The notes under the pieces were generated by a model. That model searched no databases. It was not told the origin of the DNA and saw nothing but the letters and a program-made list of their open reading frames with translations. This document shows positions 5,297 to 26,642 of a stretch of DNA of 26,642 nt, piece by piece (within the stretch, counting starts at the first letter, position 1; each line of letters begins with the position of its first letter). Location: the IMG/VR virus record IMGVR_UViG_3300009172_002344, positions 1 through 26,642 of that record; one strand, written 5' to 3'. The DNA comes from a virus. The position numbers were made by a program, and so were the translations under genes.

Positions 5297-8200
5297 ATGG
5301 AAAACGAATCAAAAACACCATTGCAAGAACTCAATCAAGCATCTTTAAGACCTGCCCCAAGTGTAATACCTGACGGGCAGTTCCGCTTTGAGCCTATTGA
5401 AGAGTTGTTTGAAACTCCAGAGGAAAAGTTTAATGATTATGCTATGAGTGGTGATTTAGCTGCTGATGATATATCAGGAGTTAATTTAGTGAAGTCTGAT
5501 ATAGATAAGTATGGTATTGGAGCTATGGCTAGTTTAGGTATAGCTGATCCTGGTACTGCTACTGATACATATAATCCAATAAAACAAAATAGACCTGATA
5601 ATAATGAGAATACCTTTTCAATGACGAAGAGGTTACTAACTTTAGATGACACACCTGTGTCAGAGAAAAAGGTTGCCCCTGCATTTTCAGGCATGAGGCA
5701 AACTCAATTTATGAGGTATTACGAACATCCTGAATTTAATAACTTAGGATATTCTCCGTATGCAAATATGGAAAACTACTATAATGAAAACTCAACTATT
5801 TATGATGACATGACTAGGATGAGAGGAAACTGGTGGTCATTAGTTGGTACTGGTCTTGATTCTGTATATGGATCTATGTTTAGTGGAGGAGATTTTTTAG
5901 AACCTGATCTTGATTCTGCTACTGCATTTGAAGACAAGATGGGAATCATGAGTTCTACAAGAGGTGGTTTTGGAGGCTTTGTAAATAACCTAGCAGCTAA
6001 CTCTGCTTACACGGGAGGTATACTTATTTCTATAGCAGCTGAAGAATTGATATTAGCTGGAGTAACTGCTTTGTCAGGAGGTACAGCAGCACCAGTTACT
6101 ATTGCTAAGACAGGTGCAAATGTTGTTAAAGGAGCTAAAGCAATTTTTAGCTTTACTAAAATGTTTGAAAAAACAAGAAAGATATTATCAAAAGCTAAAG
6201 AAATTGAAACTGCTAGAGATTTTTGGGTTGCCGCTAATGGTGGTAGAAAGATGGTTGCTGGTGCATTAAAAAAAGGATTTACCCCAAACACTTATAAAGC
6301 ATTTAAAGAAATAAAGACGGCAAAAAATGCAGGTCAAAATATGTCTAACCTTGCCAAAATGAATTTAAAGTTTGGTGGATTTTATAGAGATATGAGAGCT
6401 GTTAATTTAGCTGCGTCAGAGGCTAAGCTTGAAGCAGGTATGGCATACAACCAAGTCTTGAAAAATGGTATGAATAATTATTCTGCTGCTAATGGAGGCA
6501 AGAGTGTTGATGAATATGAAATGTCAAGAATTAGTAATGCGGCTAATCAAGCAGCATTTAAAACTATGATTGCTAATGCTCCTTTAATATATGCAAGCAA
6601 CTGGCTTGTTCTTGGTAATGCATTAGGTGGATTTCAAAGAGGTGTTCAAAATACATTGGGTTCTGCTTTTGGAAAAGGCATTACTAAAAATGTAATTAAT
6701 ACAGCAGGTAAAAAAGTTGTTGATGCTGCGGGTAAAGTAATTAAAAATCCTTTTAAATATTTAGGAGGAAAAGAAGCAGGGTTCTTAGGACTCAAAAGAT
6801 TAGGTGCAAAAATTAAAGCTGCTGGTGGTTGGAAAAGTGTGGCTGGTAGTGGTAGTATAGTTATGTTAGATTACTTTGCTGCAAATGTTGCAGAAGGTAT
6901 ACAAGAAGTTTCTCAAGAAGCAATTTCTGCAGCAACTGTTGGATACTATACAGAAATACTACAGAACCCAGCACAAGGTGGAGTTGCTTTGCAAAATCAA
7001 ATGATACTATCAGCAATGGGAGATCAGTTTTCTTCTGAAGGTGCTGGTGTATTTATGTCTGGTTTTTTAATGGGTGGTCTTGTACAACCTGTTCAATCAG
7101 TTTTTATGCAAGGTGTACCTTCTGTATATAAGTATGGATTACAGGAAGCAGGTATAGGTCTAGCCACAAAGAAACAAAAGGAAACCTATGCTGAGTTTAG
7201 AGAAGCAAAGGACAAGATGATAGAGAGAATTGTTGACTCCTATAATGAATCTTGGAATAGTCAGGCTATAGATCCTTCTGAACTTTTTGATGTAAAGAGA
7301 TTAAACTTCATGGTTCAGAAAGAGATGGCTGAAAAAATGAAAGATAGTACTTACAGACAAGATTTCTTTGGATTTAAAGATGCAGCAGATAACGCTAAGT
7401 TTCAGCAGTTCTATACTATGTTTGAAACTAATGGTACACAAAACTTTAGAAATCAACTACAAGGATTTTTAGAAATGTCTGATACTGAAATGATTGAGGC
7501 CTTTCCTGGAGTATCTAAGAAAGATCAAAAAGATGGTAAGTTAAGACAACGTATAAATGACACTATTATCCAGATGGATAAAATGGAGGAGAATTATAAT
7601 AAACTTAAAGATAAATTTATTAATCCATTTGATGAAACAAAATATAACCGCAAGACACAAGAGAAAGAATACATTAATGAGTTAGTAAATAGAGCAGGGT
7701 ATGATCATGCACGTTATTTATATATGTTTACTAATCAAGGATTCATGTCTGCTGTAGAAAGAGCAGATGGAATATACAGTAAACTTCAAGCAGAACCATT
7801 ATTTCAAAAAATGGCTGCTAGTGATATTACTACTTTGCTTGACCCAGCATCAATAGAAAGAGAGATAATTATTCTTGAACAAGAAATTGAAGCCTTTGAA
7901 GGAACCCCAGAAGGAGCAGCAACAGCAGCATCACCTAAAAAGGAAAAAATAAATAGACTTAAAGCTATTCAAAAGATTGTTAATGATCCTAAAAATAGAT
8001 TTAAGAACGGAACATTTAAAAGAAACAAGGCACTTAAAGACAGTTTAAGGTCAGAGTTTAAAAACTATGTAAGATTCCTAGCAAAGAATGAAGGTTCTTT
8101 TATTAATGAAGATAATATTGATTCTGCATTAACTGATATTGTAGACTACTATGCTTTAAACAATAGAGCTAAGGTGTATGATAAGGCAATAGAGTTCATG

Positions 8201-11200
8201 AATAACCCTGAGAAATTTGCTGAAATGGTAGCTAGATCTCAAGCTCTATCTAAAAATAGATTAGACGGCAGAATTAAAGAAACAAAAGCTGCATTAGAAA
8301 AATACACAGATATTATTTTAGCAAATCAATTAGTAAATGATTTAAGTAAAGATCCAATTGGAGCTTATGCTGATGAAGGGCAAATGGCATTGTTTTTACA
8401 AACAGGAGATTCACGCTTTTTGATAAACTTCTATGATGAAAATGGAGAGATAATTGAAGGTGTTCATGATGTTAAGTATAAAATGATACAAAGACTTATT
8501 GAGGTATATAACTCTACTAGGTCTGATCAAACAACTGAAAAGGATTTAACAGAAGATCAAAAAGAAGATGCTAAAGTTAATGATGTAGAAAATCAAAAGT
8601 CTGATATTGAAATGATGCTTGAGAATGCAGGTATTGAATTATCTGTTGATACAATAACTATAAGCCCATATCTAGATGAGGTCTTAAGAAACGCATATAG
8701 AAAGTATAAAGCAAGAATGGCTGCCTCTGGTAAGCCCAGCTTATCTGCACAAGAATGGAAAAGTACTGCTGAGGCATTAGATTTAAAAAATGTTTTTAAT
8801 GCTATTAAACAAGTATGGGCAGCTGGTGCAATGACACAAAACCCTGCTGGAGAAACTTTATTTGCAAGTCCTATAGAGCAATCACTTGTTGACTCTGATA
8901 CAGGATTTAAAGAATTTTTATCTACACCTAGACAGCAACTGTTAGCAGAGAACCCATTAATTACTTCAATATTAAATCAATCAACTATTACACTAGATGA
9001 TATATTTGAGCAACCAAACGTTGCTGATAATACAGAAGTAACTGGAAGAAAACCTCCTGTTGGTGAAGGTGTAGTTGCTGATCTGTATAAACGAGAAGTA
9101 AAAACATCAGGAGAAGAAACAATTATAATCTATGAGTTACTTGATAAAAAAGGAAATAAATTATCTCCTGAAATATTAGATTTTGTAGATGAACAATTTG
9201 ATTCATTAAGAGGAACATTTAATGAGTCTCAGGCTACTGAAGCATATGAAGCTTTAAAAGCTATTGATTCACAAGCACCAGATTCAACACCGTTTGAGTT
9301 TGATGGTGTAGACGGTTTGTTTTATGGAATGACTATTTACAAAGGAAGTGAAAAGTATATTATAATTCAAAAGCCTAACAAATCAAAAACATTTGGTAAG
9401 AATCAAAAGCTTAGAGTAATTAAAGCATCTAATAATGTAGGACCAATATCTGAAAGAAAATTTGAGTACATAAAACAAGGTGAGTTTTCAAATGTATTTA
9501 CTCAAGAAGAAATAACAATGGATGTATTGGATGACACTGTTAGTAAATTAGATGTCAACTCATTACTTAGTCCTTATGCACATGCAAATAGAGCAGATAC
9601 AAAAGGTATGTCTGAAGATGCAATAGCATCAATGATGACATCACAAAATGCTGAAGGTAAGGAAAGATTAAAAATTATATTAAAGGAATTAACTACTGAG
9701 GAAAGAGAACAGTTAGAATTTGTTGTATATGCAAATCCTAACCCAACAACTGTAAATGATTATGTTATACGTAATATGTCAGGTGTTGAATATAAATCAG
9801 CTAATCCCCTTATAAAAAGATATTCTAGTGAATATGTTATTGGTATTAGAATAAACAATACAGTAACTCAAGATAGAATAAATGCAAAATTAATTGAACA
9901 GAAGGTTGATCCAAGTGATTCACCAGATGGGATTTTTGCATATATGAATAATGCTTCATTCTTAATTAAAGATCAATTGACAGGAGCTGATGTAGATCCT
10001 AGAACAATGAACTTAAGACAAGCTCAAAATGTAATGTATAGTGCGTTTGGAAAAACCATTACTACAGAAGAGCAGTTAAAAGAAATACAAAAAGCATTTA
10101 TTCTAAATTCTATAATTACTACAACATTTAACAATCTTGGTGTAGATGGAGAGAAGCAATTCTTTGGTGTTAATGATCTACCTTTTAATATTGATTTAAA
10201 TCAGAAAGGTGGTAGAACAGTATATAGCAATGGTAATCCTGTGTTTATAGAAGCTCTTGACTATCAATATGCTGATGAGAATAATAACTACTTTGTGTTT
10301 GATTTAAAGTATGACAAAGGAGCCGGTGGAAGAATATATAACTATAGTTCAACTGCAGAGGATAGTGTTGCTTTAGAAAAACAAATTCTCCTTCAATTAG
10401 AAAAGCAAGGTATTAATAAAGATACTATGCTAGCTGGTAAAGACAGATATTTAGCTGCAGTAAAATTACCTAATGGGCAGTATAGATTAGTTAATCTTAA
10501 AGCTGTATCATATACAAAACTAGAACGTGATGAACTTTTTGTTGAAGTAATTAACAAGTCCAAAGAGATTCAAAAGATTAAGGATGCTGCCGAAAGACAA
10601 GCTGCAGCATTTAAATATAATGAGGAACTGCAAGAAAAACTTTTCCTAAGTAGTGCACGAGGGAATCAAATTGAATTAAACATTGGTGAAGACGGTAGCA
10701 TATACTTATCACTTGACAGAACTGTTGGAGAAGAAAATGAAAATATTGCTAATGAAGGAATTGGTACTGATGTAGTTAATTCAGATACAGATGCTGTTAA
10801 GATTATAGAAAGTTTATTTACTAAGTATAATAGTAATGAGGATGTAAATACTTATGATGCAAAAATAAGAGATAAGAATATAAGAAAGTCTTTTCCAACT
10901 GGAGCTCCTACTCAAGATATTATTGATAAGAGTACAACTGAGGTTGCTATACAGGTTGCAACGGACAATTCATTAGTACTTTCTGCTGAGGCAGATGCAA
11001 TAAATGCACAGAGAGCTGTTGCATTTGCTAGCATTAAACCTAAAAATGAAGACAGAAAAGTTGAAGATGAGGCAGCTTTACCTGAGATAGCAGAAGAAGC
11101 TGAGGATAGTACTGCAGATATGTCAGATGATGAAATACAAAAAAGAGTTGATAATGACTTTAATAGTAATCCATTAGGCATTGAGCATATAATCAATAAG

Positions 11201-14200
11201 GAACTTAGAGGTGAAGAACTTAATGATGCAGAAAAGAAAATGATGAATAACCCTGTTATTGCTAACGGGGTAAACATACGTGTTAGTTTAGCAGGTGGTA
11301 GAGGAAGTCTAGTACCTGAAGGAAAAACAAAAGAAACCTCATTAGATAAAGAAAAAGCAAAACTAAAAGCACTTAGAGATAAATTAATAGAAGGTAAAAA
11401 AGGTGTAGATAAAATTGATGCTTTAGATAAAAGTCCTGAGTATCAAAAACAATTAGCATTAGTAAAGAAGCTTTCTAAAACAGCAAACAAATTAGTTGAA
11501 GCAACTACAGAAACAGAAAGAATAGAAGACTATAATGAATTTCTTGACTGGGCTAATGAATCATTACCATCTATAATTGGTATTGAAGATATTTTAACAT
11601 TGGCTGATAACGGTATTAGCAAAGGCTACAAAAGAGTTGGTGCATTTGTATTAGATATCCATCAAGTAGCTGGAGGTGTCAGTGTAAACGGAACTGTTTA
11701 TGTTGGGGCAAACAATCCATTTAAATATCATGAGGCTTTTCATGGTGTGTTTAGAATGTTACTTACACAAGAACAAATAGATAGATACAGAAAGTTTGCT
11801 AAAATAGAACTAAAAGCAAAGTATGGTTCTCAATATAAAACAGAGCTAGAAAAATTTAGAACTTCTGCTAAGCAATATGAAGACATGTCTGATCTTGAAT
11901 TAGAAAATGAATTTGCAGAAGAATATATGGCAGATGAATTTGAAGCATTTAAGAAAGATCCTAGAAGTTCAAAAACCAATACAGAAATAAAATCATTTTT
12001 TACTAAGATAATAGAATGGATTAAAGGTGTGCTAGGTAAATACACATCTAATGAACTTCTAACATTATATGAAAATATTGATGCTGGTAAGTTTAAGAGT
12101 GCAACATTACAACAAAATGAATTTACTTCTTTAGCAGGAATAACTGTTGCTAATGCTTTAGTAAGACATGATGTAGTATCTAAAGATGAAGATGTATCAG
12201 GTTTCTTATATTTAGACTCTGATGTAGTAGATCCTTTAATTAGATCTATGGCTGGTATGTTTATAAGTAAGGTTAATAAAATAGAAGAAGCAACTTATAA
12301 TCCTAATGATGTTTATAATGACTTGTCTAGAGACTTTAGAGTCTTATTAGATCCAGATGACCCAAGCAATAAAATCTTAGGGCCTGGTAAAGTTAAACAA
12401 CTTCAAGAATTAGAAGATGCATTTACTAATTACCCGGAAGATATTAAGAAAGAAGTTTTTGGTTTAATTAATATTATATCAGATCAAGATTCACAAAATG
12501 AATTAAATTCAGAAATTGAAGAGGACGGAACAGGAGTAAGAAAAGCAGATGAATTTGATAAAGATGCATCTGAGATAGGTGGATTTAATTCATTGGCTCA
12601 GAAGGTGAGAGCATATATTGCTACAACAACAATGGTAGGTGTTGACTTTTTTGGTAAGACTGAATTAAAAGATGGTGTGCCTTTGATTGTACCTGTCAAA
12701 TTTAATGAAGCATATAACGGATTATTAAAAGCTGTTTCAAACATAAGTGATCCTATAGTAATGCTAAGAAGGATGTATACATACTCAAGGTTAAATCCTA
12801 ATATGTCCTCTGTAGTTGATAAGCTATTTAATGATGCAAACTTAGACCTTGATACCTTGGCTTCTGATACACCATTTATAAATGTATCTAATCCAAACCT
12901 ATTACAATCAATGCTTAAAGGCTTTGAAAACTATAAGGTAGATTATTTATTTAATGAAAGAGATGGTGCAGGAAACATACTAATATACACCGCATCTGAA
13001 AGAGATGATATAAATGCTCAACTAGACGAATGGTCTCAAGCATATATATTTAAAAGAAAACAAATGAACCTTGATGCTTCAGGTAGCAGGATTGAGGATT
13101 TACTTGGTTTGGTTAAGAACATGGAGAATATACTTGGATCAAAAACCAAGAACAAATCAAACGAAGCAACTCAAAAACTTGCAGTAGAGCATTCAGAAAA
13201 ATTATTTGAATTAACTGGGATAAGATTAAGTCCAATGTTTCTTAACTACAGTTACGTTAAAACATTTGACTACAGTAAACTAGATGCTGAGCAAAAGATA
13301 TTATATAACTCATATTCTATAGAGCCAATATCAGAACAGTTCTTAGTGACTTTGTATGATCTTATGTATAAGGATTCTAATATATTTTCTAAGAAGTCTG
13401 ATGGTATGGCTTCTAGACTTACCTATATCAGTTTAAGTAACGCTGCGCTTGATGAGTCTATTGGAGCATCTTCTTTCATTAATCCTAATGGAGATTTGGT
13501 TTATGGACATCAACTACCAACTTATCATTTAAAAGCGGTAGCACAATTAAACAACTCAAATATATTAGATAAATTTTCTGCTGATAAATATTTAGATAGA
13601 AATTATTTATTAAATAATGTAGCATTTCTAAATTTATCTGATCAAGGTAGAATTAAAGTAACTAGAATAGCAGGTAGTAAAATAAAATCTGTTGTTTCTA
13701 CTGATCTAAACAATGATGCTCAAGAAGATATATTAAATACATCTTTGAATGATAGTAGATCTACACAAAGCTTTGGTGAGTTTACTCCTCAAGAGTTTGC
13801 TGTATCTTTAATTAATAATTACGTTGCTAACTTTAACAGAAGAAGTGGTAAGAATGATATGGTAGATGGTGTTGGACAAATACCTACAGCAACAGCACCT
13901 GTATTCTTACGAGTTATGGAAGCTGCTAATACAGGAGACTTAGTTAGTCTGCCTATAATTAAAGCAGTAACAATGAAAGGTGATAATGTTGAATTAACAC
14001 CTCAACTTGTAAATGCATTTATAAATAGAATAGCATCAGAGTTTGAAAGAATAAACAGAGAAGCTATAGCCTTTGAGGAATTTGGAGATAACATTGCAGG
14101 TTATAATGATTCTATGCAAGGCAGAGCATTTAGTTTTGTAAACACAGGTTTGTTATTAGATCCTCTTACTCAGCAAACATTAGCTAATGTAGCTATCACA

Positions 14201-17200
14201 GCAGGTAAGGCTAAACAAGAAATGACATTTGAACAAGGAGTTAAGTTAGCATTGGGTATATCTACTTCAGGTATAAGAGCCGAAGTGGAAAATGGATTAA
14301 ATGAAGCATTTGCAGGATTTGATGCAATGCTTAATAAACTTCAAGTAAAGAATAATTTATCTACTCAAGTTAGACAAGGGTTAACAATAGGTGAAGGGGT
14401 GGCTAGAACTATGGTTGATATAGCCGGTTCTCAGTTAAACTTAAATACTAATGAATCACATAACCTACAACAGATATTTTTTAATAACTGGATTAACGCA
14501 GCATCAATTAATGATCTTCTATTAGGAGATCAAGCAGTCTCTTTACAAAGTATGATTGATAAAGTTAAAAGAGCTAAGCTAAATAATTCTGCATATTATA
14601 GTGCATCTAGTTTACTTGTTGCACCTGAACTTGGAATTAATCATTCTAGTACAAACTTTGACATGTATGCTTTTGATGAGATCCAAGAGGTATCTTCTTT
14701 AACAGGAAATAATATTGATAGTGCAGATGCGCAAGCATACATAACAACTAAAGGTTCAAGGTATGCAACCTTTGCTTTTGGTAGACTAAGCCCATCTATG
14801 GCTGGCATGTATGATACATTAGATAGAGGAGAAGCACCAACGAGTGATGATGTTTTTGGTACTAATGAAAACCCAATTGGTTTTGCTAAAAAACAAGATT
14901 TAATAAACTCTAAGAAATATGTTTATATGGATGGTAAGACTGCCATCAAAATGTCTGTTACTGTTTTAACTAAAGAGTACACGTCTAATTATAATGCTGC
15001 ATTGGGCAAGTGGGAAGCTAAACCTACAATGAAACAACTTCATTATTTGCGTGAGCAGATGGAAGCCAATGAAGATGCAAATAATAATTTTGCTATGGCG
15101 GCTCCATTATCTGCTGTAAAGATGATGAAGAGTAACATAAACAAATTGAATGATGACTCTAGTGGTTTTGACACAAGTCAAAATTTAACATCTACTAATT
15201 TAAGAACTGAGTATTTAGGTTTACAAGTTGTTCAACCATCTAATAAGATGGAGATAACTGACATGACTCAGATTAAAGATATAATTACATCTGAACAAGA
15301 TGACCTTGTTGAAATTCCTGGAATGGGTTTAAATGAAAAGGGTCAGGTGATGAGAGTTGGAGATGTCAGAAGATTATATAATGAAGCTATATCAAAAAGG
15401 GTTACATTAAAATATAAAAACAAAAGGAATTTAATATTTACTTTTGACACTGCATTAGATGAATTTAAATTATCTAAAAAGAAAGGTGCTATAACTCCAA
15501 ATCTTGCAGCATTTTTAAATTATGCACAGGGTTCTCTAAAAGCATCTGGCTCAGCATCAAACTTGTTAGAATTTTTTGGAACTGAAGGCGGAGAGCAAAA
15601 GTATAATCTTAACAATCCTTTTACAGCTAAAAAATATGAGCAATTGTTTCTTTCATATTTTAGTAAAGGAACACTAAGAGAGAAAATCCCTGGTACTTCT
15701 TTAGCTTTAGTATCATCATTTGGTACTAGATACTATAGAATGGTATATGAAGTTAAGAACGGTATACCTGTAAGATCAGAAATAATAAGACAGACACAAT
15801 GGAAAGGTGGAGATGCGGTTGAAACTATGCCTGGTGATGGAGTATATCCAAATGGACAAGTTGTTATAGATGTATTGAGAACAGGTCTTATGGATTACAC
15901 AGATCCTACTGATCCATCTACATCAACAGGTGAAAGGTATAGTGAGGTTGTTATGCCAGCTATGGATAAAAACGTAATGGATTTAATAGCCAACACTGAT
16001 GCTAAAATACCTGATGCTATATCTAAAATGTTTGGTGTACGTATACCAACACAAGATAAACACTCAGCAGTAAATATGAAAGTTGTTGATTTTATGCCTG
16101 CATACTATGGTTCATCTGCTATATTTCCTAAAGAATTAGTTGAGGTATCAGGAGCAGATTTTGATATAGATAAGGTGTATGCTAAAATTAAAGAGTACTA
16201 TTTAGATAGCAAAAATAACTTTGTTGCTTATGGTAAAGGAGATCCGTATACTGAATATGTGTTGAACATAAATAAACTAACTGCCAAAGAAGGTACTACG
16301 TATAATTCTGCAGCTAAATTATTTAATAATGATGAGATAGCAATTAGATTAGAGAATTCATTAACACCTTCAGAAATGAACAGACTGACTGATCCGGATG
16401 GTGCTAACAGATTTACTGAAGATTCTTTAAGAGCAGCATTAGTTCTAGGTCTTCCATCAACTAAAGCTAAGTTTGATGAGTATGTTAAGAAACATGGTAC
16501 ACCAAATGAAGCTATATTAAACAATGATATTTTAGATTACAATTATGCTCTTGCAGGTAACACAGGAATGACTGGAACTGAATTGAGCATGCAAGAAAAC
16601 AAAAGTGATTTACCTATTGCATACCAAGCAGCAGATATAGAAGTATTAAAAACTGCGTATGATGAGCTTGTTAATAATGAGAATATACAACTGTTTAAAG
16701 ACAGACAAGATTCACCTATAGATATAGATACATTGACGGGTATGATACAATCATTTGAGGCAAACAAGGGCTCTGCAATTGGAGCAGTTGTTTTACCAAA
16801 TGCATATTTGAATTTACTTACTGAATACAAAATTGAATTATTTAAAGAAGTTAGAATAGGAAATAATAAATATCCTGGGTTTGGAGGTAAGTTAATAAAC
16901 GGTGAGAGAAAGCAAGATATAATATCTTCTTTAGTTACAATGGAAACAGATAATGCTAAAGAAAGATTTATTGCCAAGTTGGGATTAAACAGACATGCTG
17001 TAGGTATGGCTGCTAATATGACATCATTAGGAATACCTTTAAAAACAACTCTTCTTTTATTGAACTCTGCAGAAGTAAGAGATCTATATGATCTTTCTAT
17101 GAACAAAAAGGATAAGATGGATCCGGGGTTAGATGATTTATTAGAAAGAAGAATTGGTTCATTAGATGCTAATATAAAAGCTGAGGCAGATAGAACAGGT

Positions 17201-19096
17201 AAGAAAACTAAATTTGTTAGTGTAACTGATGAATTATTAGAAAGTGCTGTAGATAGTACAGCTGCACTGTCTGATAACCAAAGAATTCAAATCTTATTTT
17301 TATTTAATAGAATTAATAAAATAAAAAAATGGTCAGCAAAAATGAGACCTGCAGTTACTTTATCTCAAGGGTTACCTAAAGATGTTCCTACAATTAAGAA
17401 AAATATAAAAGATCTTCAAGATTTATTTGGGCCTTTTGCTCAAGCAGATGTGAGTGCTATTTTTAAAAGTAAAACTTGGCAGAGTAATAACCTTAAAATA
17501 TTTTCTCAAATTTATCAAGAGCTATTACCAAACACTCTTTTAACAATGTCTCCAGAATTTGGTAAGATGTTAGATCCTGTATTAGAAAATTTAGATACTG
17601 ATAGTAGTGGATTTACATTTGAGTCTCAAGCACAAGTAGAACAAGATTTGCTTTCCTATCTTACAATTAAAAGTTACCAGCATTTATTAAACAATAGTTC
17701 AAGTAACGCTGCACCCGTAACAAATAATTTAATTTATCCAGGGCCAATTAATACAACAGATTTATCTATTGTAAAAATGATTAGAGATGAAAAATTAAGA
17801 AGGTCAGAAAACAATGAAGAATCAAATTTCTTTTTAGATTCATTTGTTGGTACAGAATATGCAAATGACCAAGGGAATAATACAGGTTTAAATATAGCTA
17901 CTTCAAATACATGGAGAAGATTGAATGCAGCAAATATGATTGACCTGCAAACATCTTTTGCTAAACTATACGGAGGGCTTGAAACAAGAGATTTAGCAGT
18001 ATCCATTCTACATTACATGATGATAAAAGATGGATTACAATTAAAGTATGGTAGTTTAATGAAAGCAATGAGTCCTTTTGTTATTGAAAAGTATCTTAAC
18101 AATGTAAATACAGTTGAGCTAGCATTAAAACAAGTTGTTCCTTATGAAAAAGCATTTGGTTTAAGTTATGAAGATTTGGCAAATGAATTTAAAGAAGGTT
18201 ATTTACAATCTAATCCAGTAGGTCCATTGCTTAATAACTATGAAGTAGGTGACCTTAGAAATGGAACAGGTATATTAAACATAATTGAAGATTTTGATGC
18301 AGTCAAAAATGAATTTGTAATTATGGATGGTGCTTATGGAGAAGCTAAAACACCAAAAGATTATGTTAGGTTAGCTATACCAGGGAAAGTAGTTAGCTAT
18401 AGATTATTTAAACTAGACAATTTAGATGAGAGAATAGCAACATATAAAGAAGTTCCATCAATGGGATCTAATCAACAGTTTGCAGCTGGTTTTGTTGGTG
18501 GACCAAGATTAACTTACAAACAAACAAGAAATACTAAAACTAATAATGATGTTGCAGGTGTTGCACCATCTGCACCAGCACAACAAACTAGTGAGTCAGC
18601 TGGTGCAAGTGTTGGTACTGATGCTAAAGCTACACAAGAAAAACAAGATGTGTTAAGAACTCCAGGAGCAATTGTTGAAGTCACAAACAAAAGTGTTGTT
18701 GTAAAAGAAGATCCTGATGCACCTGCAGTTAATATAGCTGACCCAGCAAAAGCACTAGAAGCCTTGTCTAAGTTAACTGCAAGTGGTACCTTTGACGAAG
18801 CAGCTAATGCCAATATTGAAAACAATTCTCAGCAGTTAGATGGTTTAACTGATGAACAACAAAGTGAAGTTGATGATTTGAAAGAAGATCTTAAAGAATC
18901 AGAAGAAGTTGCTGAAGCTGAAAAATTAGAAGATTGGTGGGAAGCTAATGTATCAGGTAATACAGAAGCAGAAAATAAAATGAAAGAGCAAGGTATGGCA
19001 TCATTGGAAGACGCACTACTTATATATGGTGATTTATTTTCACAAACCACGTTGGGAGAACAAGAATTAATAGAAAGACTTAAATGTTTTTTATAA
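5297..19096 (+). CDS. Giant virion polyprotein: cargo region, zincin-like protease and virion RNA polymerase (4599 aa)
   Basis: One uninterrupted 13.8-kb frame. Residues 1-110 are acidic and probably disordered. About 140-240 hold an aromatic-rich segment (MRYYEHPEFNNLGYSPYAN). Hydrophobic or amphipathic helices lie at about 240-275, 518-550 and 581-605, which suggests membrane contact during injection. About 650-1110 are charged and helical, with a coiled-coil-like stretch near 854-900. An acidic linker lies near 1921-1950, then a zincin-like domain with H2145-E2146-x-x-H2149. Residues about 2230-4400, roughly 2200 aa, match the size of the stand-alone crAss-like virion RNA polymerase, with RIPTQ at 3582-3586 and D3621-F-D3623-I-D3625. 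The last 190 or so residues are low-complexity and acidic. In Cellulophaga phage phi14:2 the related polymerase is a separate injected protein that transcribes early genes. The polymerase assignment is strong; domain borders are approximate and the cargo role of the N-terminal third is inferred. ATG at 5297 is 11 nt after the previous stop, without a Shine-Dalgarno. Confidence 0.88.
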   Translation: MENESKTPLQELNQASLRPAPSVIPDGQFRFEPIEELFETPEEKFNDYAMSGDLAADDISGVNLVKSDIDKYGIGAMASLGIADPGTATDTYNPIKQNRPDNNENTFSMTKRLLTLDDTPVSEKKVAPAFSGMRQTQFMRYYEHPEFNNLGYSPYANMENYYNENSTIYDDMTRMRGNWWSLVGTGLDSVYGSMFSGGDFLEPDLDSATAFEDKMGIMSSTRGGFGGFVNNLAANSAYTGGILISIAAEELILAGVTALSGGTAAPVTIAKTGANVVKGAKAIFSFTKMFEKTRKILSKAKEIETARDFWVAANGGRKMVAGALKKGFTPNTYKAFKEIKTAKNAGQNMSNLAKMNLKFGGFYRDMRAVNLAASEAKLEAGMAYNQVLKNGMNNYSAANGGKSVDEYEMSRISNAANQAAFKTMIANAPLIYASNWLVLGNALGGFQRGVQNTLGSAFGKGITKNVINTAGKKVVDAAGKVIKNPFKYLGGKEAGFLGLKRLGAKIKAAGGWKSVAGSGSIVMLDYFAANVAEGIQEVSQEAISAATVGYYTEILQNPAQGGVALQNQMILSAMGDQFSSEGAGVFMSGFLMGGLVQPVQSVFMQGVPSVYKYGLQEAGIGLATKKQKETYAEFREAKDKMIERIVDSYNESWNSQAIDPSELFDVKRLNFMVQKEMAEKMKDSTYRQDFFGFKDAADNAKFQQFYTMFETNGTQNFRNQLQGFLEMSDTEMIEAFPGVSKKDQKDGKLRQRINDTIIQMDKMEENYNKLKDKFINPFDETKYNRKTQEKEYINELVNRAGYDHARYLYMFTNQGFMSAVERADGIYSKLQAEPLFQKMAASDITTLLDPASIEREIIILEQEIEAFEGTPEGAATAASPKKEKINRLKAIQKIVNDPKNRFKNGTFKRNKALKDSLRSEFKNYVRFLAKNEGSFINEDNIDSALTDIVDYYALNNRAKVYDKAIEFMNNPEKFAEMVARSQALSKNRLDGRIKETKAALEKYTDIILANQLVNDLSKDPIGAYADEGQMALFLQTGDSRFLINFYDENGEIIEGVHDVKYKMIQRLIEVYNSTRSDQTTEKDLTEDQKEDAKVNDVENQKSDIEMMLENAGIELSVDTITISPYLDEVLRNAYRKYKARMAASGKPSLSAQEWKSTAEALDLKNVFNAIKQVWAAGAMTQNPAGETLFASPIEQSLVDSDTGFKEFLSTPRQQLLAENPLITSILNQSTITLDDIFEQPNVADNTEVTGRKPPVGEGVVADLYKREVKTSGEETIIIYELLDKKGNKLSPEILDFVDEQFDSLRGTFNESQATEAYEALKAIDSQAPDSTPFEFDGVDGLFYGMTIYKGSEKYIIIQKPNKSKTFGKNQKLRVIKASNNVGPISERKFEYIKQGEFSNVFTQEEITMDVLDDTVSKLDVNSLLSPYAHANRADTKGMSEDAIASMMTSQNAEGKERLKIILKELTTEEREQLEFVVYANPNPTTVNDYVIRNMSGVEYKSANPLIKRYSSEYVIGIRINNTVTQDRINAKLIEQKVDPSDSPDGIFAYMNNASFLIKDQLTGADVDPRTMNLRQAQNVMYSAFGKTITTEEQLKEIQKAFILNSIITTTFNNLGVDGEKQFFGVNDLPFNIDLNQKGGRTVYSNGNPVFIEALDYQYADENNNYFVFDLKYDKGAGGRIYNYSSTAEDSVALEKQILLQLEKQGINKDTMLAGKDRYLAAVKLPNGQYRLVNLKAVSYTKLERDELFVEVINKSKEIQKIKDAAERQAAAFKYNEELQEKLFLSSARGNQIELNIGEDGSIYLSLDRTVGEENENIANEGIGTDVVNSDTDAVKIIESLFTKYNSNEDVNTYDAKIRDKNIRKSFPTGAPTQDIIDKSTTEVAIQVATDNSLVLSAEADAINAQRAVAFASIKPKNEDRKVEDEAALPEIAEEAEDSTADMSDDEIQKRVDNDFNSNPLGIEHIINKELRGEELNDAEKKMMNNPVIANGVNIRVSLAGGRGSLVPEGKTKETSLDKEKAKLKALRDKLIEGKKGVDKIDALDKSPEYQKQLALVKKLSKTANKLVEATTETERIEDYNEFLDWANESLPSIIGIEDILTLADNGISKGYKRVGAFVLDIHQVAGGVSVNGTVYVGANNPFKYHEAFHGVFRMLLTQEQIDRYRKFAKIELKAKYGSQYKTELEKFRTSAKQYEDMSDLELENEFAEEYMADEFEAFKKDPRSSKTNTEIKSFFTKIIEWIKGVLGKYTSNELLTLYENIDAGKFKSATLQQNEFTSLAGITVANALVRHDVVSKDEDVSGFLYLDSDVVDPLIRSMAGMFISKVNKIEEATYNPNDVYNDLSRDFRVLLDPDDPSNKILGPGKVKQLQELEDAFTNYPEDIKKEVFGLINIISDQDSQNELNSEIEEDGTGVRKADEFDKDASEIGGFNSLAQKVRAYIATTTMVGVDFFGKTELKDGVPLIVPVKFNEAYNGLLKAVSNISDPIVMLRRMYTYSRLNPNMSSVVDKLFNDANLDLDTLASDTPFINVSNPNLLQSMLKGFENYKVDYLFNERDGAGNILIYTASERDDINAQLDEWSQAYIFKRKQMNLDASGSRIEDLLGLVKNMENILGSKTKNKSNEATQKLAVEHSEKLFELTGIRLSPMFLNYSYVKTFDYSKLDAEQKILYNSYSIEPISEQFLVTLYDLMYKDSNIFSKKSDGMASRLTYISLSNAALDESIGASSFINPNGDLVYGHQLPTYHLKAVAQLNNSNILDKFSADKYLDRNYLLNNVAFLNLSDQGRIKVTRIAGSKIKSVVSTDLNNDAQEDILNTSLNDSRSTQSFGEFTPQEFAVSLINNYVANFNRRSGKNDMVDGVGQIPTATAPVFLRVMEAANTGDLVSLPIIKAVTMKGDNVELTPQLVNAFINRIASEFERINREAIAFEEFGDNIAGYNDSMQGRAFSFVNTGLLLDPLTQQTLANVAITAGKAKQEMTFEQGVKLALGISTSGIRAEVENGLNEAFAGFDAMLNKLQVKNNLSTQVRQGLTIGEGVARTMVDIAGSQLNLNTNESHNLQQIFFNNWINAASINDLLLGDQAVSLQSMIDKVKRAKLNNSAYYSASSLLVAPELGINHSSTNFDMYAFDEIQEVSSLTGNNIDSADAQAYITTKGSRYATFAFGRLSPSMAGMYDTLDRGEAPTSDDVFGTNENPIGFAKKQDLINSKKYVYMDGKTAIKMSVTVLTKEYTSNYNAALGKWEAKPTMKQLHYLREQMEANEDANNNFAMAAPLSAVKMMKSNINKLNDDSSGFDTSQNLTSTNLRTEYLGLQVVQPSNKMEITDMTQIKDIITSEQDDLVEIPGMGLNEKGQVMRVGDVRRLYNEAISKRVTLKYKNKRNLIFTFDTALDEFKLSKKKGAITPNLAAFLNYAQGSLKASGSASNLLEFFGTEGGEQKYNLNNPFTAKKYEQLFLSYFSKGTLREKIPGTSLALVSSFGTRYYRMVYEVKNGIPVRSEIIRQTQWKGGDAVETMPGDGVYPNGQVVIDVLRTGLMDYTDPTDPSTSTGERYSEVVMPAMDKNVMDLIANTDAKIPDAISKMFGVRIPTQDKHSAVNMKVVDFMPAYYGSSAIFPKELVEVSGADFDIDKVYAKIKEYYLDSKNNFVAYGKGDPYTEYVLNINKLTAKEGTTYNSAAKLFNNDEIAIRLENSLTPSEMNRLTDPDGANRFTEDSLRAALVLGLPSTKAKFDEYVKKHGTPNEAILNNDILDYNYALAGNTGMTGTELSMQENKSDLPIAYQAADIEVLKTAYDELVNNENIQLFKDRQDSPIDIDTLTGMIQSFEANKGSAIGAVVLPNAYLNLLTEYKIELFKEVRIGNNKYPGFGGKLINGERKQDIISSLVTMETDNAKERFIAKLGLNRHAVGMAANMTSLGIPLKTTLLLLNSAEVRDLYDLSMNKKDKMDPGLDDLLERRIGSLDANIKAEADRTGKKTKFVSVTDELLESAVDSTAALSDNQRIQILFLFNRINKIKKWSAKMRPAVTLSQGLPKDVPTIKKNIKDLQDLFGPFAQADVSAIFKSKTWQSNNLKIFSQIYQELLPNTLLTMSPEFGKMLDPVLENLDTDSSGFTFESQAQVEQDLLSYLTIKSYQHLLNNSSSNAAPVTNNLIYPGPINTTDLSIVKMIRDEKLRRSENNEESNFFLDSFVGTEYANDQGNNTGLNIATSNTWRRLNAANMIDLQTSFAKLYGGLETRDLAVSILHYMMIKDGLQLKYGSLMKAMSPFVIEKYLNNVNTVELALKQVVPYEKAFGLSYEDLANEFKEGYLQSNPVGPLLNNYEVGDLRNGTGILNIIEDFDAVKNEFVIMDGAYGEAKTPKDYVRLAIPGKVVSYRLFKLDNLDERIATYKEVPSMGSNQQFAAGFVGGPRLTYKQTRNTKTNNDVAGVAPSAPAQQTSESAGASVGTDAKATQEKQDVLRTPGAIVEVTNKSVVVKEDPDAPAVNIADPAKALEALSKLTASGTFDEAANANIENNSQQLDGLTDEQQSEVDDLKEDLKESEEVAEAEKLEDWWEANVSGNTEAENKMKEQGMASLEDALLIYGDLFSQTTLGEQELIERLKCFL
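11534..12076 (+). other. Zincin metalloprotease-like domain inside the polyprotein
   Basis: Approximate residues 2080-2260. HEAFH at 2145-2149 is an intact HExxH zinc-binding and catalytic motif, preceded by strand-like segments (VGAFVLDIHQVAGG, VNGTVYVG) as in phage zincins. A downstream helix NEFAEEYMA (Glu2205, 2208 and 2209) can supply the third ligand, as in gluzincins. The segment is followed by FFTKIIEWIKGVLGKY and a LYENIDAGKFK motif, a pattern I associate with such domains in phage polyvalent proteins. It is preceded by an acidic, linker-like region. Activity and substrate are unknown; cutting the polyprotein itself or host proteins is speculation. Confidence 0.7.
15014..16216 (+). 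other. Catalytic double-psi beta-barrel region of the virion RNA polymerase
   Basis: Residues about 3240-3640. The second barrel holds GADFDIDKVYA, whose aspartates 3621, 3623 and 3625 are the expected magnesium ligands. They correspond to NADFDGD in cellular beta-prime subunits and DxDGD in QDE-1-type polymerases, with the usual Gly replaced by Ile. RIPTQ starts 39 residues upstream, paralleling RAPTL about 35 residues before the aspartates in E. coli beta-prime. A candidate lysine motif for the first barrel is PLSAVKMMKSN with Lys3275 and Lys3278; this second assignment is inference from position and pattern. Confidence 0.85.
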
Positions 19097-19110: not shown

Positions 19111-22100
19111 ATGGCTAAATGTTATAATAGAAATGATGCTGCATATCTAGCATTAAAAGATATTTACAAAACTGATCTAAAAACTTCTCAGGTAATTAGT
19201 AATTGGCAAGAAGCAAATGATTCTGACATTTTTCCAAGTGCTGTACAGGCTAAGTCAATGGTTTCTGATCAAGAGATTGTTTTTAGTTTAAAGCAAAAAG
19301 AATTTGGTCAAGCAGTTTTAGATAATGTAAGACGTGAAAAAATAGGTAGTAGGCTAGCTGGTCAATTTTTAATTAATAACTCTAACCCTGAGACATTATT
19401 ATATGATGAATCCTTTCTTGAAAATAATCTGAAAAGGTTCTATAGATATTTAGAAATAAATAATATAGATGAATCATCATTTAAAGTAACAAGAACAAAT
19501 CAAAGCTATAAGATTGAACCAATCAATAGTGCATTTGGTAGAAGAGACATTTTAGAAAAGTCAAGATCATGGGATACTAATAGATCAAGAGCTGTAGTAA
19601 TGCATCTTAAAAGAATGTTTCCACAGGTAAATGTAAAAATGTTATCTGTAGCAGAAGCTAGAATATTACATGAATCCCTACCGAAGTATAATAAAAAAAA
19701 TGTTGGTTTTGACAACGTAAAATCTTTCTATTACAATGGCACTGCATATCTGATTAAAGGTAGAGTAACTGATGAAATAGCAATTGAAGAAATGTTGCAT
19801 CCTTTTATAGATGCAATAAAAATGGAAAATGAAGAACTGTTTAATAATTTATTAGATGAAGCAGTAACTAACTTTCCTGAATTATCTGAGGAAATTAAAG
19901 ATGCATACAATAATCAATCTAGAAACTTCAGTGAAACTGAAAGGGACTTAGAAATTGTAACGCAAGCTTTAGCCAGACACTTCAAAAAAGAATATGAGAC
20001 AACTCCTACCAAAGGATTTTTAGATAGGATTGCTGAATTATTAGAGTGGTTTAAAAGTGTTATAGAAAATTTAAGCGAATACTTAACAGGTAAACAACTA
20101 CCAGTATCAGCAATTAAAGCTACTACATCTATGAGTGATATAGCTAAGTTATTGAATACAGAAGGTATACAGTTTAAATTAGAGAAGAGAGTCAACGGTA
20201 ATGTAAGGTATAACTTAACTAAACAAAAGGCTAAAGAATTAAAGGCTGCAAGAGGTGAAGCTAATGATGTACAAAAGCCAATATTAGATCAACTATATAA
20301 TCTTGCTCAACTTGCAGATCAAGAAATACATCAATTTTCTGTATCTGAAAAGAATGCTGCAGCTGGTGATACACTTGTGGTTTTGAATGAAGAAGATCAT
20401 GTATACTATAATCCTAATAAAACTAAAGATATATACACCTCAGCTACAACAGCTATTAAAGGAACATTACCTGAAGATAAACAAATAGCACATAAGATTA
20501 ATTTGGATATTGGTAATGAAATAGATACTCTTTTAGAAGGTGTTATTGGTGGTCTATCATTTGATGCATCATTTAAAAATTTAACAACTGACAATGTATC
20601 CAAAGAAAAAGCAAAAGAAGTTTTTGATACGTTGGATACTATAATACAAAACTTTAAAGATCAAGGGTCTATTGTTTTATCACAAGTAGTATTGTTTGAT
20701 GAAGCAACAAAGATAGCCGGTATGGCTGATATATTTATTATAGATGAATATGGGAGAGTGCAAATTCTAGATTTAAAAACAAGTAAGAACAATCTAGATG
20801 ATGTAAATGATGATGGCATTAAAAAATATAAAGTTAAATATCCTTTAGCAGCTGATAGTAAACTTATACAATATGGTATCACAGAACTAAATACAGAAGC
20901 TCAACATAATTTACAAGTTGCTTTGTATAGAAGAATGATTGAGAACATGGGCTATGAGGTATCTTATCATGAATGGTCTATGGCAACTATTCACTTTAAT
21001 GTTGGAATAGAAGGTTACGGGGTTGATCAGGTTTTTAACGGTGAAGTAAACTATGACAGAATATATGCACACCCTATCTCAACTCAATTAGATAAGGTAA
21101 ACAAGTTAATACCCATATCCAAAAATTCTGCTAAACAAGAATCATTGTCCAAAAAGCAACGTGATGCTTATAATAAAATTTGGAATGGTAAAGATCAAAC
21201 AACTGAAACCACAGAGCAAGATAAAACTGATGCAGAAAATTTTACTGAATATAATATTGCTGCTGGTTTACTAGAGGACTATATGGGTAAGCTTATTGCT
21301 AAAAGAGATCTAATCCCTTTAGTAAAGAATAGTATTTATATCCAGTCTACTCAGAAAAAAGAGATTGATCAAATTTCAAAAACTATAGCATACATTGCAA
21401 TAGCCTTATCTGAAGATGCGGGTCAACAGTCTGTTGTTTTATCTGAGGTATTACAAGATGCTCTAGCACAAATAAAAGAGTTTAGATCTTTTATGGAAGA
21501 TCCTAACAATATAACAAAGCCAGAATATTTATCATATGCATTACACTTTGAAAAATACCTAGAAACATTTAAAGGTCTTTATGAATTGACAGATCTGGTT
21601 GGGTTAAACAACACACAGAAAAATTTAATTTTATCTTTACAAACACAACTAAATGCATTAAGAGGATCCAAGGGAAGCAGAGGTATAGTTGATGATGCGT
21701 TATATGATTACGTACAAGAGCAAGTAAGAACAAAGTCTAGTAATAACTACGGAGGAGAAGGAAGTTATTTTACCAAAGAAGATTTAGACTTAGTAATGGA
21801 GTTTGCACAAGATATAGATGGTGTTGAATACCAAACTAGAGATATGGATACTTCAGGTGATGTAATGTTATCTGTTATGGCTAAAATAAGAAAAATACAA
21901 ACTCAAAAACTTTTAGATAAGGTTGCTCAAAGAGAAGATATAATTAGAAAGCTTGCTCAAAAACTTGTCAAGCTTAATCCAGGAGTACCTTTAAATGAGC
22001 TCTATGACTTTATGTTAGAGTTTGTTGATGTTGACGGAGTTAAAACCTTTAGTGGTAATTATGTAACAGCAATAGGTAATAAATATAATATAAAGCAAGA

Positions 22101-25805: not shown

Positions 25806-26642
25806 TTAACCTTCACAACTAGAACATTCTAATATATTTCTTGCAAAGTCTTGAGCTGAACTTTTACTAAATTGATAGTATAAAGTTTTAACTCCTTCCT
25901 CCCAAGCATACATATACAGTTTATTTATATCTTTAGCTGAGACAGATGGATCAATCATTAAATTCAATGACTGAGACTGGTCAATATACTTTTGTCTTTG
26001 TGCTGCTTGCAATACTAACTCTTTAGGGGATATCTCAACAAAAGACTTAAACACTCCTTTATTAGGAAAGTCTAAATGTTGTACACTTCCATCTTTCTTA
26101 AGTATAGATTGCCAAGTCTTAGGATTATTTAAACCATGCTTTTCCAATTGAGCTTCTAAGAAAGGATTCTTATATACTGTTTTAGATTTAGCAAGATCTT
26201 TAATAAAATAGTTAGACTTAATAGGCTCAATACCCATGCTCACAGCTCCATGAATGAACGAACTTGATTTAGTAGGTGCAATGGCCATTAAAGTTGTGTT
26301 AGCATAACCATCCCTAATAGAATTGTATCCGTGTTCTGTATGTAACTTTCTTGATGCTATTTCACTTCTGTCTTTAAGAGTTCTAAATATTTCACTGTTC
26401 AAACCTTTAGCTTGTAGTGAGTCAAATTCAATAAGCTTTGATTGAAATAATGAATGGTAACCCATAACACCTAGACCAACAGCTCTGTGATTTTTTGCAA
26501 AATTATAAGCTCTCTTCATACCGGGCATTGTTTCAGCCTTAATAATAAACTCATCCATTACAGCATTAAGAAAATACACATATGTTTCTACAGCATCTGT
26601 TTCTTTAATCTCATCCCAGTGTAACAGGTTGATAGATCCTAA
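25806..26642 (-). CDS. nrdA: Ribonucleotide reductase class I large subunit, C-terminal part (5' truncated)
   Basis: The large (alpha) subunit reduces ribonucleotides to deoxyribonucleotides, supplying dNTPs for phage replication in the cytoplasm; it needs a small radical-generating subunit (NrdB) not in the window. The frame is open to the right edge and begins LGSINLLHWDE, the family's segment just after a redox cysteine that lies outside the window. Further on are KNHRAVGLGVMGYHSLF, YANTTLMAIAPTKSSSF and GVKTLYYQFSK; the two adjacent tyrosines (codons at 25875-25880) match the radical-transfer pair Tyr730-Tyr731 of E. coli NrdA. The C-terminus ends CSSCEG, the flexible thiol pair that regenerates the active site, here CxxC as in eukaryote-type R1 rather than the CxxxxC of E. 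coli. The true start is beyond the window; the internal GTG at 26579 is not it. It is convergent with the holin-like gene, 1 nt apart. Confidence 0.95.
   Translation of the reverse strand, partial: LGSINLLHWDEIKETDAVETYVYFLNAVMDEFIIKAETMPGMKRAYNFAKNHRAVGLGVMGYHSLFQSKLIEFDSLQAKGLNSEIFRTLKDRSEIASRKLHTEHGYNSIRDGYANTTLMAIAPTKSSSFIHGAVSMGIEPIKSNYFIKDLAKSKTVYKNPFLEAQLEKHGLNNPKTWQSILKKDGSVQHLDFPNKGVFKSFVEISPKELVLQAAQRQKYIDQSQSLNLMIDPSVSAKDINKLYMYAWEEGVKTLYYQFSKSSAQDFARNILECSSCEG

Follow-up and report, generated by a model that had tools for sequence, protein, structure and literature searches.

A crAss-like virion RNA polymerase core within a giant viral open reading frame that also carries a probable zinc metallopeptidase domain

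The complete virus record IMGVR_UViG_3300009172_002344 (26,642 bases, hereafter the window) contains an open reading frame (ORF) of 4,599 residues, P0001, whose RIPTQ, GSSAIFPKEL and GADFDID segments we read, with a probability of roughly 95%, as the catalytic core of a crAss-like virion RNA polymerase, a DNA-dependent enzyme with two barrels on a single chain. This reading follows from homology to crAss001 gp50 and to the phi14:2 polymerase, from a predicted fold closest to the phi14:2 structure 6VR4 and to QDE-1, and from invariant aspartates and lysines. The kind of enzyme is already known; the environmental branch that the window represents is less known and is recognized here by neither Pfam nor PHROGs.

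Residues 2230-4599 of P0001 match 95 phage records at an expectation value (E) ≤ 0.01 in a tblastn search of 50,697 phage records. The 60 matches listed, the best of which has an E of 1e-11, all cover the DFDID residues, and RNA polymerase is the annotation of many of them. They come from named crAss phages, from 'uncultured phage cr...' genomes, of which those opened belong to Crassvirales, and from pieces of faecal phages that lack annotation. Two alignments were used for the core. A1 holds 11 sequences, drawn from Steigviridae, Intestiviridae and relatives of the window and including the phi14:2 enzyme, while A3 holds 49 sequences, from the window and environmental relatives only, without phi14:2 and crAss001. 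The profile comparison with crAss-like polymerases that the initial annotation had proposed came out in its favour: the environment-only A3 profile matches crAss001 gp50 with an E of 5e-28 (database size 177,635 sequences) and, with the HMMER bias filter off, the phi14:2 polymerase with an E of 1e-13 (53.5 bits), and 505 shuffled or reversed control sequences score at most 8.3 bits with it. Because these matches and scores stand far above the controls, the likeness of the motifs is more than chance.

Several observations weigh against this assignment. Under default HMMER filters, A3 does not report 6VR4 and recovers only 3 of the 11 reference polymerase pieces; the bias filter by default conceals the phi14:2 match together with six other reference matches. 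The very strong match of the A1 profile to 6VR4 arises by construction, A1 containing phi14:2, and the whole P0001 ORF has no PHROG, Pfam or single-sequence PDB match. The crAss001 major capsid protein, used as a single-sequence query, was found in only one of seven relatives' records. Among the other searches, Pfam with the 11 core sequences gave scattered weak matches only, none to a polymerase. A nucleotide search against phages returned no match in near mode; in distant mode the best match lies on the motif of Rudgehvirus (157 bases, E 1e-10), the others being far weaker and mostly from unrelated phages. In favour of the assignment, a crAss-type TerL and portal were found in all seven relatives' records tested, these being records of relatives and not the window itself. 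The TerL from the record holding the closest relative, locus L006, matches 129 phage records, of which the 25 listed are 'cr...' phage terminases or unannotated faecal phage pieces.

We then consider the predicted fold. The AlphaFold2 model of residues 3001-3951, built with 49 sequences, has a predicted local distance difference test score (pLDDT) of 83.2 and a predicted template modelling score of 0.82. The top Foldseek match is 6VR4 (E 1.3e-26), and QDE-1 chains come next. With VIA-align, 6VR4 aligns over 714 residues with a Z of 22.6 and covers the model from end to end (model residues 1-951), while QDE-1 (7y7p_A) reaches a Z of 17.0 over 430 aligned residues (model 67-914; root-mean-square deviation 5.1), followed by maize RDR2 (Z 16.4), phage P32 gp64 (Z 10.7) and P23-45 gp96 (Z 9.3). 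The model is thus predicted to hold two double-psi barrels on one chain, as in 6VR4 and QDE-1; the resemblance to QDE-1 is one of fold and not of membership in the eukaryotic family. This agrees with the initial annotation, which had taken the region for a two-barrel, QDE-1-related virion polymerase and had named a fold without double-psi barrels, or a DFDID segment outside an active-site position, as what would speak against it; as far as the fold alignments, the sequence alignment and the predicted secondary structure go, neither was seen. The DFDID loop (model 621-625) lies between a helix (613-618) and a strand (626-631) in a block with a pLDDT of 77, and its predicted location at the active site of the second-barrel region is supported by the sequence alignment with phi14:2 and by the predicted secondary structure.

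The opposite explanation, that a DxDxD motif arose by chance or convergence in an unrelated giant structural protein, might draw on the lack of any curated family match for the ORF and on a profile-profile comparison with beta-prime that is not significant (see below). It is contradicted by homology and a fold match to the phi14:2 RNA polymerase over hundreds of residues; in view of the A3 profile scores and the 6VR4 fold match we rejected it and give it practically no credence.

The motifs themselves lie at the residues where the initial annotation had placed them (Table 1). DxDxD has been reported in crAss RNA polymerase, and the phi14:2 enzyme is described as a two-barrel polymerase with a role in early gene expression (PMC7886860). 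In the window, DxDxD stands in the YRIPT...GxxxxxPxE...GSDFDxD context of crAss-like virion polymerases, which is shared with the eight known polymerases in which the motif was located: phi14:2 has YRIPNQ...GSDFDIDKMY with D1361, D1363 and D1365, crAss001 has YRVPTE...GSDFDVDKLY with D1483, and crAssphage has YRIPTE...GSDFDVDSVY with D1433. D3621, D3623 and D3625 of P0001 align with the three phi14:2 aspartates. R3582, P3584, D3621, F3622, D3623, D3625 and K3275 are invariant in A1 (11/11) as well as in A3 (49/49). As had been noted, the Gly of DxDGD is replaced by Ile in the window; since Ile or Val occupies this position in the window and in the eight known crAss enzymes compared, the replacement is not peculiar to the window.

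In the first-barrel region, the residues invariant in A1 include D3144, A3145, Q3146, K3207 and K3275, and both lysines are kept in all 49 environmental sequences. K3275 and K3278 had been put forward as candidate first-barrel lysines. The former holds. The latter does not: although conserved in at least 90% of the environmental set, its position is Lys in only four of the eight known crAss enzymes (crAss001, cr85_1, cr110_1 and cr3_1), the other four having Ala (phi14:2), Gln (crAssphage) or Thr (Rudgehvirus, crAss002). K3207 is, in the aligned sequences, the other invariant lysine of this region. The first barrel of QDE-1 has one glutamine and two lysines that are all invariant (Q736, K743 and K767; PMC1750930), and two lysines are contributed by the first barrel in two-barrel polymerases generally (PMC4996933). 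Since K3207 and K3275 are both invariant and QDE-1 and other two-barrel enzymes set the precedent of two lysines, they make the better pair, and by analogy they may correspond to the QDE-1 lysines.

The resemblance to the cellular beta-prime subunit, with which the initial annotation had aligned the motifs, is visible by eye and has the right spacing, but it is not significant by sequence profile. R3582 and D3621 are 39 residues apart, against 35 between R425 of RAPTL and D460 of NADFDGD in Escherichia coli rpoC, as had been estimated. PF00623 has no match in the window at E ≤ 10, although it matches 14 of 14 control genomes. The profile-profile comparison, made with a narrow beta-prime set of 20 proteobacterial sequences (E. 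coli and 19 of 80 loci fetched; effective number of sequences 1.6), gave a probability below 1%, and one of 30 column shuffles beat the real alignment, for A3 and A1 alike; the A3 alignment is in the register of the initial annotation and the A1 alignment is not. In the model, the listed large subunits of multisubunit polymerases align with a Z of 7.0-7.5 over 99-207 residues, which is weak and, as the tool warns, may reflect a common arrangement; the largest-subunit chains align mostly from model residue ~461, that is, over the second barrel. Because the fold (Z ~7, weak) and the literature agree on it, rather than the sequence statistics, we consider the beta-prime likeness credible. One could go further and see the enzyme as a direct offshoot of a cellular beta/beta-prime fusion, outside the QDE-1/crAss two-barrel group, given how alike RAPTL...GxAI...HPL...NADFDGD and RIPTQ...GSSAIFPKEL...GADFDID are at near-equal spacing. 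However, the closest folds are phi14:2 and QDE-1, with the multisubunit chains far down the scale, and PF00623 is without a match, which makes such an origin very improbable.

The polymerase core is preceded, on the same chain, by a long N-terminal half, of which residues 1-2229 have no tblastn match among phages at E ≤ 0.1. Residues ~1510-1930 resemble an ORF of the Leptolyngbya phage Lbo-JY46 (profile E 8e-10 against 31 proteins, 1.5e-8 against six-frame ORFs). Towards the end of this half, H2145, E2146, H2149, E2208 and E2209 are unchanged in all 40 sequences aligned (the window and 39 relatives); left out of this alignment are L045, whose ORF is without the region, and also L241, L216 and L272. 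The last three deviate, with HEPFH in L241, HEAGH in L216 and an open fused frame without HEAFH in L272. All 40 aligned sequences thus have HExxH followed downstream by the glutamate of ExxAD, a combination that we take to be the signature of gluzincin metallopeptidases. A profile built from this region finds the C-terminal ends of gp47 in crAss001 (E 8e-14 among 31 proteins) and in cr85_1 (1.7e-8), and crAss001 gp47 has the identical HEAFH at position 2157 of 2,341 residues. Homology to gp47 is significant only at the zincin end, the rest of the N-terminal half having no detected match there. The zincin model has a pLDDT of 62 and no Foldseek match at E ≤ 0.001, and the profile has a weak match in the PDB to the Pro-Pro endopeptidase 6fpc (E 0.052). 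Residues ~2080-2275 are therefore called, from these motifs and profiles, a probable zinc metallopeptidase. Since the zincin matches the gp47 C-terminus and the sizes agree (2,341 plus 2,412 residues in crAss001 against 4,599 here), P0001 looks like a fusion of a gp47-type protein with a gp50-type polymerase. The left boundary of the polymerase (~2340) is inferred from the end of the zincin and the lengths of the unfused enzymes, 2,412 residues for crAss001 gp50 and 2,180 for the phi14:2 polymerase.

The join is common among the best-matching relatives. Of 523 viral loci the best 80 were examined, and 71 of these have HEAFH and the polymerase in one ORF; the nine exceptions are six loci cut by the edge of the retrieved sequence and three with a broken frame. 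After a second scan from a distant member (best 80 of 396 loci), the pooled 156 loci gave 88 distinct ones, judged by 1,200 nt around the motif, and 76 of these have HEAFH in the same ORF. The remaining 12 comprise six that run off the stretch, three that are frame-broken, two open frames without HEAFH (HEPFH in L241, none in place in L272) and L216, whose GWDFDID motif was missed by the search pattern and which has HEAGH upstream in the same ORF; two of these twelve groups contain an intact copy (L041 and L055). Both sets were chosen by similarity, so that the counts are biased and give no proportion for crAss-like phages as a whole. Frame breaks inside the giant ORF were seen in L040, L045 and L056; that of L040 may be an assembly error, L041 being intact and identical to it over the 1,200 nt around the motif. 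A tree of 59 cores has a long branch (SH-aLRT, the Shimodaira-Hasegawa-like approximate likelihood ratio test, 100) that separates the 51 environmental rows from the eight known crAss polymerases. The tree was made by a quick method without bootstrap from rows selected for their closeness to the queries, the fusion cannot be seen in some short rows, and long branches call for caution; for these reasons we claim no clade beyond this split.

A different arrangement prevails in the known genomes. In eight of the ten opened (crAss001, cr85_1, crAssphage, Rudgehvirus, cr110_1, crAss002, cr3_1 and bajarodcaudo virus 1), a separate large protein has HExxH in its C-terminal fifth and the polymerase ORF has none. 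The window zincin profile matches crAss001 and cr85_1 well and cr3_1 marginally (E 0.016), while the other five are above E 0.05. As for the remaining two genomes, phi14:2 has HExxH in gp076 only and cr116_1 has it in the polymerase ORF. No description of an N-terminal zincin-polymerase fusion was found in the literature searched, whose coverage was partial and excluded figures, and we do not claim novelty. Virion polymerases fused to large proteins of unknown function do occur in crAss-like phages (PMC10770324), and RNA polymerase genes of up to ~6,000 amino acids are mentioned (PMC10136315).

These features raise the question of whether the 4,599-residue chain might be a precursor that the zincin cuts, so that the polymerase acts as a separate protein of ~2,250 residues like crAss001 gp50. 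Such processing would fit the invariance of HEAFH and EExxAD in the 40 aligned sequences, the end of the domain just ahead of the inferred polymerase start, and the unfused relatives, which have the same domains as separate genes of matching sizes. However, the zincin is also found near the C-terminus of crAss001 and cr85_1 gp47, unjoined to a polymerase; because the domain occurs unfused, cutting the junction is not its sole job. Moreover, L272 keeps a fused open frame without HEAFH, L241 and L216 have altered motifs, and the zincin is predicted from its motif, with a poor model and an empty fold search at E ≤ 0.001. We therefore regard a cleaved precursor as unlikely. In its fullest form, the environmental crAss-like branch would make its polymerase only as a ~4,600-residue chain, preceded by an injected cargo protein and an active peptidase that frees the polymerase by cutting, in the capsid or after injection; this too is a doubtful proposal, but if true, it would amount to a giant polyprotein that processes itself, in a DNA phage.

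The fused polymerase is followed by P0002, whose C-terminal part matches crAss001 gp49 (9.6e-22) and phi14:2 gp076 (7.4e-8) in profile searches; by this homology, for which tblastn was also used, P0002 is a crAss gp49-type protein. A further match of the same part is to the Rudgehvirus polymerase frame of 4,105 residues, at residues 3436-3620 (5e-6). A degenerate zincin-like domain of P0002, with the first histidine of the motif replaced (EEMLH), aligns to the intact HEFMH of Lbo-JY46 (3.8e-14), and its PD-(D/E)XK-like domain aligns to a domain of crAss001 gp47 (4.3e-11). In this P0002 domain, D540, D554 and K556 are invariant in five of five close relatives; no nuclease match was found in Pfam, and the family name comes from the motif. 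With a gp47-type zincin end fused upstream and a gp49-type protein downstream, the polymerase sits in a crAss transcription block, whose gp47, gp49 and gp50 were located in the crAss001 virion (PMC10172136). Domains have been exchanged within the block: the PD-(D/E)XK-like one is part of gp49-type P0002 here and of gp47 in crAss001 (L012 6120-13145).

Comparison with known systems places the window as follows. The phi14:2 polymerase (PDB 6VR4; KC821624 gp077, gp66 in the literature) shares the context of the catalytic motif (there GYRIPNQ...GSDFDIDKMY), the fold and the order of large neighbours (gp078-gp077-gp076), but is a separate gene of 2,180 amino acids with ~21% identity over the core, and its neighbour gp078 is without HExxH whereas gp076 has one. 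crAss001 has the homologous polymerase gp50, HEAFH near the C-terminus of gp47, and gp49 of the P0002 family, but as three separate genes, with gp47 on the other strand. crAssphage (Carjivirus communis) also has a giant polymerase ORF, gp44 (4,070 aa), with the same motif, next to gp45, its zincin counterpart, which the GenBank record names a zincin protease; there the zincin is in a separate gene and gp44 is annotated as a polymerase fused to another RNA polymerase subunit, whereas in the window the fusion partner is on the N-terminal side. The polymerase ORF gp_24128 of cr116_1 (Steigviridae; L021 5098-12621) is extended N-terminally like that of the window, with 2,507 residues to the motif against 1,483 in crAss001, and has HExxH at 635, 877 and 2199. 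Its start, however, resembles the start of P0002 (2.9e-6) and not P0001, and with the window zincin profile it gives no match at E ≤ 0.05; it would thus be a different join of related block parts, and such an extension among deposited crAss genomes lowers the novelty of the window's arrangement. The RNA-silencing polymerases QDE-1 and RDR2 share the single chain with two double-psi barrels but are cellular, not phage-borne, with 12-14% identity over the aligned part. P23-45 gp96, likewise a virion polymerase with two barrels, is fused to a virion protein of very large size, the tail tape measure protein (PMC10770324), but there the polymerase forms the N-terminus of the tape measure, while in the window it follows its partner region.

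By analogy with the studied relatives, the three aspartates would hold the catalytic magnesium ions, K3207 and K3275 would contact nucleic acid or substrate, and the polymerase would be carried inside the capsid, enter the host together with the injected DNA and transcribe early phage genes, as described for phi14:2 and crAss001 (PMC7886860, PMC10136315 and PMC10172136); a crAss-type polymerase is reported to be active in vitro (PMC10136315). The N-terminal region may plausibly keep the polymerase with the injected cargo or the entry channel, and a coupling of transcription to DNA entry has been suggested for other fused virion polymerases (PMC10770324).

The RIPT...DFDID signature thus identifies a polymerase of the virion type in an environmental branch missed here by Pfam and PHROGs, and D3621, D3623, D3625, R3582, K3207 and K3275 supply an active site that can be tested. 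Altogether, the crAss transcription block retains related domains while its gene boundaries shift, since HEAFH belongs to the polymerase chain here and to a gene of its own in crAss001 and cr85_1, the nuclease-like domain has been re-partnered, and cr116_1 is joined otherwise. These moving boundaries turn the role of the conserved metallopeptidase into a concrete question.

The window has four large ORFs on the + strand, in the order P0004, P0003, P0001 and P0002 (Table 1).

Table 1. Features of the window with their nucleotide positions; the limits of both barrel regions are approximate.
Feature	Position	Strand	Remarks
P0004, at least 647 aa	10..1953	+	frame open at window start
P0003, 1,090 aa	2013..5285	+	upstream cargo or ejection protein by position only
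P0001, 4,599 aa	5297..19096	+	probable zincin in the N-terminal half, crAss-like virion RNA polymerase behind it
P0001 residues 1-2039, large N-terminal region	5297..11413	+	position and size like crAss001 gp47 (2,341 aa)
P0001 residues ~2080-2275, probable gluzincin-type metallopeptidase domain	11534..12121	+	HEAFH 2145-2149 (nt 11729-11743); E2208-E2209-Y-M-A-D (nt 11918-11935)
P0001 residues ~2340-4599, virion RNA polymerase region	12314..19093	+	homology searches
P0001 residues 3001-3951, polymerase core	14297..17149	+	stretch modelled by AlphaFold2
First (beta-like) double-psi barrel region, residues ~3117-3321	14645..15259	+	model strand pattern and conservation
K3207	14915-14917	+	conserved, first-barrel region, with D3144-A-Q3146
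PLSAVKMMKSN, residues 3270-3280	15104-15136	+	contains K3275 and K3278
K3275	15119-15121	+	conserved, first-barrel region, with D3144-A-Q3146
Second (beta-prime-like) double-psi barrel region, residues ~3461-3636	15677..16204	+	model strand pattern; multisubunit alignments
RIPTQ, residues 3582-3586	16040..16054	+	by-eye counterpart of beta-prime RAPTL
GSSAIFPKEL, residues 3605-3614	16109-16138	+	located in translation
GADFDIDKVYA, residues 3619-3629	16151-16183	+	contains D3621, D3623 and D3625
DFDID, residues 3621-3625, predicted metal-binding aspartates	16157..16171	+	sequence and model
P0002, 1,923 aa	19111..24882	+	second transcription-block protein; C-terminal part of crAss001 gp49 / phi14:2 gp076 family
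P0002 residues 180-328, degenerate zincin-like domain	19648..20094	+	EEMLH replaces HExxH
P0002 residues 439-605, PD-(D/E)XK-like nuclease domain	20425..20925	+	GMADIFIID...ILDLKTSK
Ribonucleotide reductase alpha gene	25806-26642	-	PF02867, E 2.9e-45; right end, faces block

None of the reference crAss ORFs matches P0003 at E ≤ 0.01, and P0004 has a single marginal match among the reference ORFs, in Lbo-JY46 (E 0.0099). Parts of P0002 and of the N-terminal half of P0001 have counterparts in this cyanophage (PP438436; L014, L103 and L104); among its genome ORFs, there is no convincing match to the polymerase core profile (best E 0.37), so that it has giant proteins of this sort but no polymerase that could be detected.

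Some minor observations concern polymerase genes in deposited genomes. MT774394, MT774384 and their RefSeq copies label the catalytic segment of the polymerase a nuclear pore complex-like protein. In bajarodcaudo virus 1 (L022 4362-12545) and cr116_1 (L021 5098-15963), the polymerase frame breaks after GSDFD and resumes in a later ORF that starts with MVDK; between the two parts lies a gene annotated as an endonuclease in the former and as a phage gene product in the latter, so that the break at the active site looks like the work of an intervening element. Finally, reductase genes, as seen at the right end of the window, are also present within ~10 kb of the phi14:2 transcription block.

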